From an uncultured bacterium (lineage in GTDB: Bacteria; CAIJMQ01), in the NCBI GenBank assembly GCA_903821905.1, contig CAIJMQ010000058.1, positions 1-9,259 on the forward strand: DNA of 9,259 bases. Direction: 5' to 3'. Below, piece by piece: positions 3 to 4,176 of this stretch. A program made the translations under genes and the position numbers. The notes beneath the pieces are model-generated. The model saw only the letters and a program-made list of their open reading frames with translations. It was not told where the DNA came from and did not search any database. Numbering within the stretch: the first letter of the stretch is position 1; the number at the start of each line of letters is the position of its first letter.

Positions 3-2018
3 ACAGAAAAAACTACTGATATAAAAGCACGTATAAGTTTTCCTGAACCTGTATTTGATTTTGGTTCTGTATATCAGGGGGAAGAAATAACCCATGCTTT
101 TAAATTCCAAAATATAGGCGAAGATATTCTAAAAATTGATACAGTCCAAGCTTCTTGCGGCTGTTCAAAGGCGACAACATCCCAAAAAGAGATTGCACCA
201 GGGGAATTTGGTGAAATCGAGGCTGTATTCAACACAGCTGGATTTGAAGGCCAGCAGACAAAAATTATTCGCGTATCTTCAAATGACCCTATTAACCCTT
301 CCGTAGATCTAAAACTAGCAGGTACAGTAAAGTTGGAAGTTGAAATTAATCCAAGGTATATTCAATTGGGAGATGTTCCAAGACATTCGTGGGTTACCAA
401 GCAGATTGAAGTTATCCAAAGAGGAGAACAAGAACTCTTGATTGATCAAGTAACTACTGATAAAAAGTATATAAAAATAGAGAGTGTTGAGAAAAAGAAG
501 GTAGGGCAAAATGTTTATCTAATAAAAGTTTCTCTTAATGGCGATGCTCCCGTTGGTAACTTATTGAGCAGAATAGAAATCAGTACAAATCTAAAAAGGC
601 AAAAAAGAATTTTAATTGGAGTACAAGGACAGATTTTAGGAGATATCAAACTTTCCCCGGAACGGATAGCATTTAAAATCCCAACCGGCACAAAAAGGGT
701 TTTCCCGATTGTTCTCTCTGCAAAAGGCGACAATTTTGAAGTTATAAGAGTAGATAATGATATAAAGTATCTTGTTTCGCAGGTAATTACACTTGAGAAA
801 TTTAGAAAATATAGAATTGATTTTTCTATAGATGAAAAAGCTCCTAGCGGTGCAATTACCGGGAAGGTTAAGGTCTATACCAATTATCCAGGAGAGACTG
901 AGTTAACGATCCCTGTCTTGGGTTGGATAAATAATAAAACAATTGAAATCGGGTATTTTTTTGAAAGAGGTTGTTTAAAGTGTGAGCGTGTTTACCCCAT
1001 TCTGCAGTCAATAAAAGAAGAATTCCCAAGCGTTGTGCTTAAAGAGTATGACATTGAACCAAGAGAAAATTTGGAATTAAATGAAGAACTATGTGAAATT
1101 TATGGTGTTCCGGAAGATAAAAGAATGACAACTCCTACGATTTTTATAGGCAAGGACTTCTTAATAGGAGAATCAGTAACTAAGGAAAACCTCGTTGAAT
1201 TGATTAATAAGTATAAAGATGGCGCATCTTTACCTTTAAATGAAACAGCTAAAATGGGAGATGTTGCAGAAGAAAATGTCATGGACAGGTTCCGTTCATT
1301 TGGTGTCTTTGCCATAATAGGAGCGGGATTGCTTGATGGGTTTAATCCTTGTGCCTTTGCCACCATAATATTTTTTATTTCTTACCTCACAATCTTAAAA
1401 AGAAAGGGAAGAGAAATTATTCTTGTCGGGGCTGTCTTCACGATAGCTGTATTTATCACATATCTTTTACTTGGCATGGGCCTCTTTGAATTTTTAAAAT
1501 ATCTGTCCTTCCTAAAACATTTTATTAGAGTTGTGTACGGAGTTATGGCGATACTTACATTAATACTTGGAGTAATGAGTTTTATAGATTATTTAAAGTG
1601 CAGAAAAGGGCAATCTAGGGAAATACTACTGCAACTTCCTGCCTTTTTAAAGAATAAGATACATTCTACTATTAAAGAGCAGGCAGGCTTAAAAAGATAT
1701 GTTTTTGCAGCATTTATCACCGGGTTTATAGTATCAATCTTAGAATTGTCCTGTACAGGCCAAGTATATTTACCGACAATTGTTTATGCAATGGGTATTA
1801 GCAAGCTCAGGCTTGGTGCCTATATGTATCTTCTGGTCTACAATATCATGTTTATTTTGCCGCTTATAGTAATTTTTATACTGGCGTATTTTGGGACTAC
1901 TTCCATCCGATTAAGTGATGTCCTAGGGAAAAACATAGCGCTGATAAAACTTTTAACATCCATTCTGTTCTTTATCTTTGCGGCATTCTTAGCAATGATG
2001 ATTATAGTCCCGGTTTAG
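3..2018 (+). CDS. DUF1573-thioredoxin-CcdA/DsbD-like membrane redox protein, 5'-truncated by window edge
   Basis: The reading frame is open from base 3, so this is the C-terminal 671 residues of a longer protein; the TTG at 333 is internal. Numbering from the first visible codon, residues about 10-110 form a DUF1573 domain with its conserved Cys-Gly-Cys (C52, C54). Residues about 111-212 and 213-309 look like two further beta-sandwich repeats lacking that motif. Residues about 312-405 resemble thioredoxin, with C324-L-K-C327 and a cis-proline-type TTPT segment. From about 430 to the end come roughly six hydrophobic segments with NPC (C450) and SCTG (C584), matching the paired membrane cysteines of CcdA/DsbD. 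In that family, electrons pass from cytoplasmic thioredoxin across the membrane to extracytoplasmic thiols. I infer that this protein carries its own extracytoplasmic thioredoxin acceptor and DUF1573 modules. The N-terminus, and any signal peptide, is outside the window. The domain assignments are fairly secure; the substrate is unknown. Confidence 0.88.
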   Translation, partial: TEKTTDIKARISFPEPVFDFGSVYQGEEITHAFKFQNIGEDILKIDTVQASCGCSKATTSQKEIAPGEFGEIEAVFNTAGFEGQQTKIIRVSSNDPINPSVDLKLAGTVKLEVEINPRYIQLGDVPRHSWVTKQIEVIQRGEQELLIDQVTTDKKYIKIESVEKKKVGQNVYLIKVSLNGDAPVGNLLSRIEISTNLKRQKRILIGVQGQILGDIKLSPERIAFKIPTGTKRVFPIVLSAKGDNFEVIRVDNDIKYLVSQVITLEKFRKYRIDFSIDEKAPSGAITGKVKVYTNYPGETELTIPVLGWINNKTIEIGYFFERGCLKCERVYPILQSIKEEFPSVVLKEYDIEPRENLELNEELCEIYGVPEDKRMTTPTIFIGKDFLIGESVTKENLVELINKYKDGASLPLNETAKMGDVAEENVMDRFRSFGVFAIIGAGLLDGFNPCAFATIIFFISYLTILKRKGREIILVGAVFTIAVFITYLLLGMGLFEFLKYLSFLKHFIRVVYGVMAILTLILGVMSFIDYLKCRKGQSREILLQLPAFLKNKIHSTIKEQAGLKRYVFAAFITGFIVSILELSCTGQVYLPTIVYAMGISKLRLGAYMYLLVYNIMFILPLIVIFILAYFGTTSIRLSDVLGKNIALIKLLTSILFFIFAAFLAMMIIVPV

Positions 2019-2057: not shown

Positions 2058-2489
2058 ATGGCTAAAGTCCTTATAGTTTATTATTCCTTGGGTGGTAATA
2101 CAAAGATAGCAGCAGAAGCAATCCTAAAAGGTGCACAGGGGGTGGGGGCTAACGTTACGATTAAAAATGCCTTAAAAGCAAATGCCGATGATTTAATTGA
2201 CTGTGATGCTGTAGCCATTGGGACACCAGATTATTTTAGCTATATGGCAGGTGGTTTAAAGGATTTTTTTGACCGTGCCCTCTATTCTGTAGAGGGTAAA
2301 GTTACAGATAAACCATGTTTTGTCTTTGTGACACATGGAGGTGGCGGAAAAGCCGTTGAAAGTGTTGAGGAAATGTGTAAAAGATTTAAGTTTAAAGAAA
2401 TTGGCAAACCACTCTTAATAAAAGGCAAGCCGGATAGTAAAGCAGAGAAACAGCTTGAAGAAGCTGGTAGGAAACTGGCTAATTCGTAA
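2058..2489 (+). CDS. Flavodoxin-like FMN-binding protein
   Basis: This 143-residue protein has the flavodoxin fold signature. The N-terminal strand is followed by a phosphate-binding loop, S10-L-G-G-N-T15, like the S/T-x-T-G-x-T loop that holds the FMN phosphate. The second flavin loop is GTPDYFSYMAGG at 55-66, followed by the helix KDFFDR. A glycine-rich THGGGG at 92-97 occupies the third flavin-contact region. The length equals that of short-chain flavodoxins. No signal peptide is visible, so it is probably a cytoplasmic electron carrier or a small flavin oxidoreductase. It sits 39 bases after the DUF1573-thioredoxin-CcdA gene and 33 bases before mnmA, in an apparent redox/sulfur operon. 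Its electron donor and acceptor cannot be read from sequence. It could equally be a WrbA-like or flavodoxin-domain reductase. Confidence 0.87.
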   Translation: MAKVLIVYYSLGGNTKIAAEAILKGAQGVGANVTIKNALKANADDLIDCDAVAIGTPDYFSYMAGGLKDFFDRALYSVEGKVTDKPCFVFVTHGGGGKAVESVEEMCKRFKFKEIGKPLLIKGKPDSKAEKQLEEAGRKLANS

Positions 2490-2522: not shown

Positions 2523-3602
2523 ATGTCGAACAAGAAGAAAGTGGTTATCGCTATGAGCGGCGGCGTAGATTCTTCGGTTGCTGCCGGTTTATTGGTTAAA
2601 GCAAATTATGAAGTTATAGGAATAAGTTTAAAACTTTTTGATGTAGAGCAAGAAGAAAAAAGTCCTGGCTGTTGCGGTATTCAAGGTATAGAAGATGCCA
2701 GAACAGTATCAAAAAAACTTGGGATTCCCTTCTATGCAATTAATTACACAAAAAAATTTAGGGAAGAGGTTGTTAAGTATTTCTGTTCAGAGTACACAAA
2801 AGGGAGAACTCCCAACCCATGTATCATATGTAACAAGAAGATAAAATTTGGATATCTTCTTCAAAAAGCAAAAGAATTGGGCGCAGATTATATTGCGACA
2901 GGTCACTATGCTAAAGTTGATTATAACAAGGTGCTCCGCAGGTATATTTTGAGAAAAGGCAAAGACAAAAAGAGAGATCAATCGTATTTTTTGTTCTCTC
3001 TATCGCAGGAGCAGCTAAAACATACTCTTTTCCCGCTTGGTGATTACACGAAAGAGGAAGTCCGCAGCCTCGCGAAAGAATTCGGGTTAAATGTTCACAA
3101 TAAACGTGCAAGTCAGGATGTATGCTTTATCACGGATGCGGATTATCATAAATTTTTAAGAAAGCAGCTTAAGAATAAATGCCAGACAGGATTAATAGTA
3201 AGGACTAAAGGAGAAGAAGTTGGAAAACATCAAGGTATCGCTTTTTATACTATTGGTCAGAGAAAAGGGATAGGTTGTCATAGTAAACCAATGTATGTGA
3301 CTGGTATTGATAAGAAAAAGAATGTTATTGTAATAGGAGAAGAAAAAGAATTATACAAAGATTTCTTAATTGCAAAAGATGTAAATTGGATAGATAGGGA
3401 AAATTTAACAAAACCGTTAAAGATTACAGCCAGAATAAGATATAGAAACAAGGAAAATGAGGCTATTGTTTCTCCTTTTAAAAGAGGTTTAATTAAAGTA
3501 AAATTCACTAAACCGCAAAGAGCGATTACTTCCGGACAAGCTGTAGTGTTTTATAATAGAGATAAAGTTGTTGGCGGAGGTTGGATAAAAAATGAAGAAT
3601 AA
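2523..3602 (+). CDS. mnmA: tRNA-specific 2-thiouridylase MnmA
   Basis: MnmA activates U34 of the Lys, Glu and Gln tRNA anticodons with ATP and replaces the C2 oxygen with sulfur delivered by a persulfide relay from a cysteine desulfurase. The product is 359 residues, the normal family length. The PP-loop SGGVDSS is at 12-18, TGHYA at 126-130 and RDQSYFL at 151-157. The two functional cysteines are C100 (in NPCIIC) and C201 (in SQDVCFI). A further Cys, C103, completes a CxxC; in some family members these cysteines have been proposed to bind an iron-sulfur cluster rather than act only as persulfide carriers. The start agrees with the family N-terminus, although no good Shine-Dalgarno sequence precedes it. 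It is flanked by two flavodoxin-fold genes and its 3' end overlaps the next gene by 11 bases. Confidence 0.97.
   Translation: MSNKKKVVIAMSGGVDSSVAAGLLVKANYEVIGISLKLFDVEQEEKSPGCCGIQGIEDARTVSKKLGIPFYAINYTKKFREEVVKYFCSEYTKGRTPNPCIICNKKIKFGYLLQKAKELGADYIATGHYAKVDYNKVLRRYILRKGKDKKRDQSYFLFSLSQEQLKHTLFPLGDYTKEEVRSLAKEFGLNVHNKRASQDVCFITDADYHKFLRKQLKNKCQTGLIVRTKGEEVGKHQGIAFYTIGQRKGIGCHSKPMYVTGIDKKKNVIVIGEEKELYKDFLIAKDVNWIDRENLTKPLKITARIRYRNKENEAIVSPFKRGLIKVKFTKPQRAITSGQAVVFYNRDKVVGGGWIKNEE
3576..3580 (+). promoter_or_regulatory. Ribosome binding site embedded in the mnmA 3' end
   Basis: GGAGG lies 11 bases upstream of the ATG at 3592 and is encoded within the glycine codons of the MnmA C-terminal VGGGW segment. 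It supports translation of the overlapping flavoprotein gene from 3592, and implies that ribosomes finishing mnmA pass over the downstream initiation site. The spacing is slightly long. Confidence 0.55.
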
Positions 3603-4176
3603 CAAGCCGAAAAGAATAATCGGGATTTCCGGCAGCCCCAGAAGGCACGGGAACACGGAAATACTTTTAGATAGAGCTCTGGAAGTTGCTAAAAGAAAAG
3701 GAGCTAAAGTAAAGAAAATTTTTATCAATGAACTTAAGTTTTCCCCCTGCCAAGAATGCAAAAACATAAGAAAAGATGGGGTTTGTATTATCAGGGATGA
3801 CTGGCAAATATTGTGCTCGGAAATAGAAAAAGCAGATGGCATAATTCTTGCGTCTCCTATCTTTTTCGGGAGTGTTTCTGCGCAGACAAAGATGATGATA
3901 GACCGCTTCCAGTGTCTATGGCTTGCGAAGAACATATTCAAGACCTATAAAACAAAAAAGAGAAAAGCAGGTGCTTTCATATGCGTAGAGGCATCTAACA
4001 GAAAAGACTTTTTTATTAATGCAAAATCAATTGTGAGAAATTTCTTCACAACCATTGATACGGATTACAGGGGAGAACTCTTTTGCTCAGAGATTGATAA
4101 AAAGGGAACCGCAAGAGAACACCCGGAATGTCTAAAAAAAGCTTCCAATATAGGCAAGAGAATTCTATCTCTATAG
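3592..4176 (+). CDS. NADPH-dependent FMN reductase / iron-sulfur flavoprotein family protein
   Basis: This 194-residue flavodoxin-fold protein has the FMN-reductase family N-terminus ISGSPRRHGNTEILL (about 12-26) and the second flavin loop ASPIFFGSVSAQTKMMIDRF (87-106). Between them is a cysteine cluster, C53-x2-C56-x8-C65, followed by IIRDD. In the iron-sulfur flavoprotein branch this region usually has four closely spaced cysteines (Cx2Cx2Cx4-7C) binding a [4Fe-4S] cluster. Here the third position is Asn58, so only three remain; C75, C108, C131, C165 and C180 lie elsewhere. It is probably a cytoplasmic flavin oxidoreductase moving electrons from NAD(P)H or ferredoxin; the substrate is unknown. 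The start overlaps the mnmA stop by 11 bases in another frame, with GGAGG upstream, which implies translational coupling. Family assignment is firm, but cluster binding is doubtful. Confidence 0.88.
   Translation: MKNNKPKRIIGISGSPRRHGNTEILLDRALEVAKRKGAKVKKIFINELKFSPCQECKNIRKDGVCIIRDDWQILCSEIEKADGIILASPIFFGSVSAQTKMMIDRFQCLWLAKNIFKTYKTKKRKAGAFICVEASNRKDFFINAKSIVRNFFTTIDTDYRGELFCSEIDKKGTAREHPECLKKASNIGKRILSL

Follow-up and report, generated by a model that had tools for sequence, protein, structure and literature searches.

The window, a 9,259-bp stretch of DNA that makes up the entire contig C58 of a 1.30-Mb, 84% complete host genome, begins with a gene whose product joins three DUF1573 modules, a thioredoxin domain and a membrane core homologous to DsbD/CcdA in a single polypeptide. 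We judge it fairly probable that this protein is a DsbD-type transmembrane dithiol relay ending in the CxC motif of the first DUF1573 module, which would act on an envelope substrate. The relay as such is well supported; the flow of electrons, its direction and the transfer from the CxxC to the CxC are predicted from the sequence.

Domain structure of the fusion protein

The fusion frame is open to its stop codon and has no internal stop, as checked on the ORF and its translation. Because the window is a whole contig, the ~25–30 N-terminal residues that form the signal peptide of relatives are absent from the fusion ORF. Full-length relatives in three genomes (G001, G002 and G003) are 62–69% identical over window residues 5–669, have an identical domain order and comprise 691–731 residues (longest ORFs) with a signal-peptide-like start, e.g. 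MKRLVIFIIAFFYLLVFPVVSTCAED. An assembly chimera or join within positions 3–2018 was ruled out by these three colinear orthologues, and a check for frameshifts in the same interval found none. The fusion is present in all four genomes of the host's family and absent from the sister family (seven genomes of the phylum compared). The architecture described in the earlier note, one polypeptide with three sandwich modules, a thioredoxin and a membrane domain, was borne out by profiles, fold match and relatives. The residue numbers given there for C52/C54, C324/C327, C450 and C584 are all correct on the translation, but the note counted seven cysteines of interest while listing six pair positions.

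Table 1. Features of the window, with positions in the 9,259-bp stretch
Feature	Position	Strand	Evidence or remarks
Fusion gene, 5' truncated at contig edge: DUF1573 x3, thioredoxin, DsbD/CcdA-like membrane core	3..2018	+	671 aa visible
DUF1573 module 1, residues 11–109, PapD/ASH-like beta-sandwich	33..329	+	Pfam PF07610 E 3.4e-29; pLDDT ~95; 2qsv Z 14.8
Cys-Gly-Cys C52-C54, proposed redox receiver	156..164	+	CxC kept across phyla; predicted UxC in two genomes; published UGC/UxC selenoproteins
DUF1573-like module 2, residues 117–211, without CxC	351..635	+	In-house profile E 4e-22
DUF1573-like module 3, residues 219–309, without CxC	657..929	+	In-house profile E 1e-15; low-confidence model region
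Thioredoxin-fold domain, residues ~312–410	936..1232	+	Z 10.3 to 2e0q; Z 11.3 to 7q3j
CLKC active site C324/C327	972..983	+	Both Cys in 72/72 relatives
DsbD/CcdA-like membrane core, six hydrophobic spans	1299..2015	+	HHalign 94.6%, E 7e-8 against PF02683 proteins; hydropathy
NPC motif C450, first membrane cysteine	1344..1352	+	72/72; aligned to SPC of DsbD/CcdA
CTGQ motif C584, second membrane cysteine	1752..1763	+	72/72; aligned to PCVG of DsbD/CcdA
Short flavodoxin, 39 bp downstream of fusion	2058..2489	+	In the window's genome only, not in the three relatives
mnmA, tRNA 2-thiouridylase	2523..3602	+	Downstream of fusion in 4/4 genomes of the family
NADPH-dependent FMN reductase-like protein, overlapping mnmA	3592..4176	+	Domain match

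A search for the DUF1573 domain recovered it in module 1, where Pfam PF07610 matched in two stretches with 101.2 bits against a gathering score of 26.1; modules 2 and 3 were detected with an in-house DUF1573 profile, which placed the first of its three modules at residues 15–109 (E 6e-32). The OS_HP2 model NF041425 gave the window protein 94.9 bits, just under its curated cut-off of 100. The best solved-structure match of module 1, 2qsv, superposes with an rmsd of 2.8 over 105 residues. AlphaFold modelled the thioredoxin domain at a pLDDT of 86–98 and modules 2 and 3 with low confidence, and its models yield no usable contact between CGC and CLKC. Modules 2 and 3, which have no cysteines, probably act as spacers or offer a docking surface.

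The CGC is indeed confined to the first module, but this is a general property of DUF1573 proteins and not peculiar to the fusion: nearly every relative examined carries a CxC in its first cysteine-bearing module and none in modules 2 and 3. Across phyla the motif occurs as CGC, CAC, CSC, CPC and CNC, its middle position being free to vary (G, A, S, P, N), and the nine fused DUF1573 modules found all have two close cysteines (CGC in four, CSC in two, and CAC, CPC and CTTC in one each). An in-frame TGA stands at the first position of the CxC in two genomes, predicting UGC in one (G007, L042) and UAC in the other (G045, L023). Published surveys describe DUF1573/OS_HP2 as a UGC/UxC selenoprotein family in which the first Cys is replaced by Sec (PMC2398784, PMC9312934, PMC13188914). 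On these comparisons the CGC is more likely a redox than a metal site, and the CxC is a probable redox receiver of the relay. A UGA near the DUF1573 gene of another genome (G024), considered as a Sec codon, was rejected as an ordinary stop codon.

The CLKC thioredoxin-like domain N-terminal to the membrane core was confirmed by fold match and domain positions. Its fold is clear (Z 10.3–11.3 against thioredoxins) and a PDB sequence search returned thioredoxin-like matches only; the Pfam Glutaredoxin model remained below threshold on this domain, with 18.1 bits against a cut-off of 22.9. Hydropathy resolves six hydrophobic spans in the core with positively charged loops 1 and 3, which places the N-terminus outside. 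Together with the signal-peptide-like starts of relatives, these loops uphold the extracytoplasmic location of the thioredoxin domain.

The membrane core and its wider family

Homology of the membrane core to CcdA/DsbD escaped the Pfam models but was found by profile–profile comparison, with the cysteines in register. The window protein gave no match to DsbD_TM or DsbD_2 (PF02683 and PF13386) at E values up to 1, and these models matched 2 and 6, respectively, of 72 relatives. When the family alignment was compared by HHalign with an alignment of PF02683-recognised proteins, the score was 94.6% (E 7e-8, 210 columns), in a register that sets NPC opposite SPC and CTG opposite PCVG, that is, at both catalytic positions. 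Reversed, column-shuffled and YidC controls all gave less than 1%, and masking of every Cys still left 83%. A transitive bridge between the family of the window protein and the PF02683 proteins is provided by ArsG of G002 (C14:72244), which is matched by PF02683 (2.4e-9), by alignment A3 (7.7e-10) and by the ArsG model (293 bits). In fold searches (Foldseek/VIA), the matches listed for the full model were sandwich and thioredoxin folds, with no CcdA match among them, and those listed for the Trx–membrane model were thioredoxins, again with no CcdA match for the membrane part among them. None of the 72 aligned relatives lacks C324, C327, C450 or C584, so the membrane cysteines that had been singled out in the NPC and SCTG motifs are invariant; other cysteines are poorly kept (C364 in 22/72 and C533 in 4/72).

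When one genome per species was scanned for the Trx–membrane part with an alignment as query, at least 576 relatives were returned, the best 80 of which were analysed; a single-protein query gave no match in a scan of genome contigs for close relatives. The best 80 come from Chloroflexota, Atribacterota, Poribacteria, Latescibacterota, Gemmatimonadota, Thermodesulfobacteriota and others, and 54 of them have a second upstream CxxC, i.e. the order Trx–Trx–membrane. DUF1573 was found in the flanks of 21 of these 80 nearest relatives against ~0.2 expected, kinship being ignored; the expectation refers to 727 kb at a background density of 0.30 per Mb (60 genomes). Four of the 21 are fusions (L044 and L045 from Poribacteria, L047 from Eisenbacteria, L054 from Gemmatimonadota) and five are directly adjacent (L078 from WOR-3, L093, L102, L103 and L119); the remaining 59 of the best 80 have no DUF1573 nearby. 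A further fusion, with CPC, occurs in G013. Within 1.5 kb, DUF1573 accompanies 13/80 Trx–membrane loci compared with 0/30 canonical CcdA loci (Fisher p 0.018, kinship ignored). At the level of whole genomes, co-occurrence of DUF1573 with the Trx–membrane family is weak (6/9 compared with 17/51, p 0.07, kinship likewise ignored). A tree of the Trx–membrane part gave 2–4 changes for the fusion, the fewest forced being one.

In three loci (L093, L119 and G009) the operon order is an Lpd-like NAD(P)H disulfide flavoenzyme, a DUF1573 protein with CGC and a Trx–Trx–membrane protein, which reads as a predicted whole route from pyridine nucleotide to CxC. The architecture described in the earlier note thus recurs in several phyla, but it is one member of a wider Trx–(Trx)–membrane family with varied N-terminal modules.

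A second recurrent partner of the core is a metallophosphatase/5'-nucleotidase-like N-terminal module (L107, L115, L070, L092 and L112, from their N-termini, and L037 of G044), with cysteine motifs ACRCP, PCRCP, ACPTCP or HGCG just ahead of a GGLA-type motif. In a Lentisphaerota protein of 1551 residues (L120), a long middle region connects a thioredoxin-like N-terminal part with the Trx–membrane core. Separately, at L040 (7791–9302 and 10235–10711), DUF1573 is fused to an N-terminal domain that by eye is C39-peptidase-like, with CCG in place of CxC, near a small exported cysteine-rich protein.

Predicted electron path and alternatives

In the reading we prefer, electrons would pass from NADPH via thioredoxin reductase to cytoplasmic thioredoxin (both encoded in the genome), then to the membrane pair C450/C584 and on to C324/C327 in the thioredoxin domain outside the cytoplasm. 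The last stage would be the dithiol C52-x-C54 in DUF1573 module 1, and this module would reduce, or isomerise disulfides in, an envelope substrate. DUF1573 would thereby fill the role of the Ig-like N-terminal domain in DsbD. That domain, nDsbD, receives electrons from cytoplasmic thioredoxin via the membrane part and the C-terminal domain at C103/C109 and then distributes them (PMC7347389), and its immunoglobulin-like fold is named in the title of Goulding 2002, cited in the same paper. By analogy, the DUF1573 module may hand electrons onward. DUF1573 as a divergent DsbD_N was rejected at profile level (HHalign 1.7%), and at so low a similarity the sandwich seems to be an independent stand-in for nDsbD. 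The self-contained transmembrane reductant pathway of DsbD logic that had been suggested for this gene is therefore sustained in its three pairs and its homology, the relay itself being predicted.

Upstream of the fusion, relatives carry rrf2, cysK, iscS, a ThiI-like gene, nadA, iscU and nfu, some of them absent from one genome or another, and G002 adds HcyBio, NIL-ferredoxin and AIRS-like genes between cysK and iscS. This neighbourhood suggests a possible link with cysteine, Fe–S and thiolation metabolism in this lineage only; neighbourhoods elsewhere differ, so we do not take the link as a general role. The flavodoxin, being restricted to the window's genome, is probably outside the core system. 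At L033:9118–9627 of G001, iscU is split over two frames, possibly by a frameshift or sequencing error. Elsewhere in the host genome lies a cluster of a TlpA-like lipoprotein, CcdA, thioredoxin and TrxB, and this canonical CcdA/TlpA system counts against the relay reading, as do the missing CGC–CLKC contact in the models and the 59 of the best 80 relatives with no DUF1573 close by. No DsbD_N (PF11412) was found in the host genome (84% complete).

CxC motifs bind soft metals, and on that general ground the CGC could be a Cu or Fe site on DUF1573, with the Trx–membrane part merely keeping it reduced for metal binding; the fusion also has genes for Fe–S assembly and for an Rrf2-type regulator beside it. 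One DUF1573 gene is listed in the iron-dependent stimulon of Bacteroides thetaiotaomicron (PMC10434189). However, the Sec that relatives carry at the first position suits redox catalysis better than metal storage, the X of CxC is free to vary and one fused relative has CTTC. With the first Cys replaced by Sec in OS_HP2/DUF1573 selenoproteins and by a UGA in two genomes, a metal site is improbable. The earlier note had offered the CGC as a final target or a metal site; the latter has become less likely, and the former is one option among others. As such an end client, structural or enzymatic, the DUF1573 CGC would only need to stay reduced and would transfer no electrons onward. The fusion, as a dedicated 1:1 partner, fits this option, as do the Poribacteria and other lineages in which the core is fused to the metallophosphatase-like cysteine-motif module, as if cores served different clients; but the same genomes also encode CxC DUF1573 paralogues that stand alone, with no core linked to them, and nDsbD hands electrons on from the equivalent position in its relay. 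We regard an end client as rather unlikely.

The membrane core might alternatively be an ArsG-type efflux permease, exporting organoarsenicals, and not an electron conduit. The ArsG model NF040495 does match 71/72 relatives weakly (best E 2e-9), but the window protein, at 16.5 bits, falls short of the cut-off of 200, the window contains no ars genes, and in the relatives the true ArsG is encoded elsewhere, in an ars operon, after two Trx-like genes and beside Acr3, so that a permease is a very improbable reading. Because the true ArsG follows two Trx-like genes in its own operon, ArsG itself looks DsbD-type, and what is annotated as an efflux permease may in fact be a DsbD-type relay. Such ars operons, in which an Acr3-like transporter accompanies two Trx-like genes and a CcdA-like 'ArsG', were seen at L183 (G002 C14:68000–78000) and L186 (G003). 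Least probable of all is that the fusion protein is a cytochrome c maturation reductant in the CcdA/ResA role: a CcdA-type core with an extracytoplasmic thioredoxin domain would suit it, but no Cytochrom_C_asm (PF01578) protein was detected in the host genome at its 84% completeness.

Relation to known systems

The DsbD-type relay that we favour resembles E. coli DsbD in its three redox pairs, its profile-homologous membrane core and the presence of a thioredoxin and a beta-sandwich redox domain outside. The order differs, being Ig-like alpha, membrane beta and thioredoxin gamma in DsbD and sandwich, Trx and membrane in the window protein, and so does the sandwich, which is PF11412 in DsbD but a CGC-bearing DUF1573 without a Pfam DsbD match here. 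Like CcdA with TlpA, ResA or CcmG, the fusion has a six-span core feeding an extracytoplasmic thioredoxin, although it is a single polypeptide with an extra DUF1573 stage and its host encodes a CcdA system separately. ArsE–ArsF–ArsG likewise combines two Trx-like parts with a CcdA-like core, and ArsG is the nearest named NCBIfam model; its components are separate genes in ars operons, and ArsG has SPC and FCP where the window protein has NPC and CTGQ. In flavinylation clusters of DsbD, DUF4266 and DUF3570, a DsbD-family protein is paired with a secreted protein bearing a C-terminal CxC (PMC8238504), but DUF4266 is a small secreted protein and not DUF1573, and ApbE flavinylation is used there. 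The OS_HP2/DUF1573 selenoproteins share the same beta-sandwich, with UGC or CGC; in the literature searched they are published solely as a family of unknown function, with no membrane relay described.

The CGC/UGC motif of DUF1573, a common exported domain of unknown function, was put on record in 2008 and has had no role assigned to it since. We propose, tentatively, that DUF1573 with its CxC/UxC site evolved independently as a widespread extracytoplasmic module with thiol/selenol reductase or isomerase activity, a functional counterpart of nDsbD. In many little-known phyla it would be served by Trx–membrane cores that go unrecognised by Pfam and would also serve other cysteine-motif modules. 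The analysis exposes a large Trx–membrane family that is mostly missed by the Pfam DsbD models, and 'ArsG' permeases may likewise be relays. The fusion and operon links in several phyla lead to a specific prediction, that the CxC works as a redox site supplied by a thioredoxin domain, and with it a widespread uncharacterised family would gain its first concrete, testable function.
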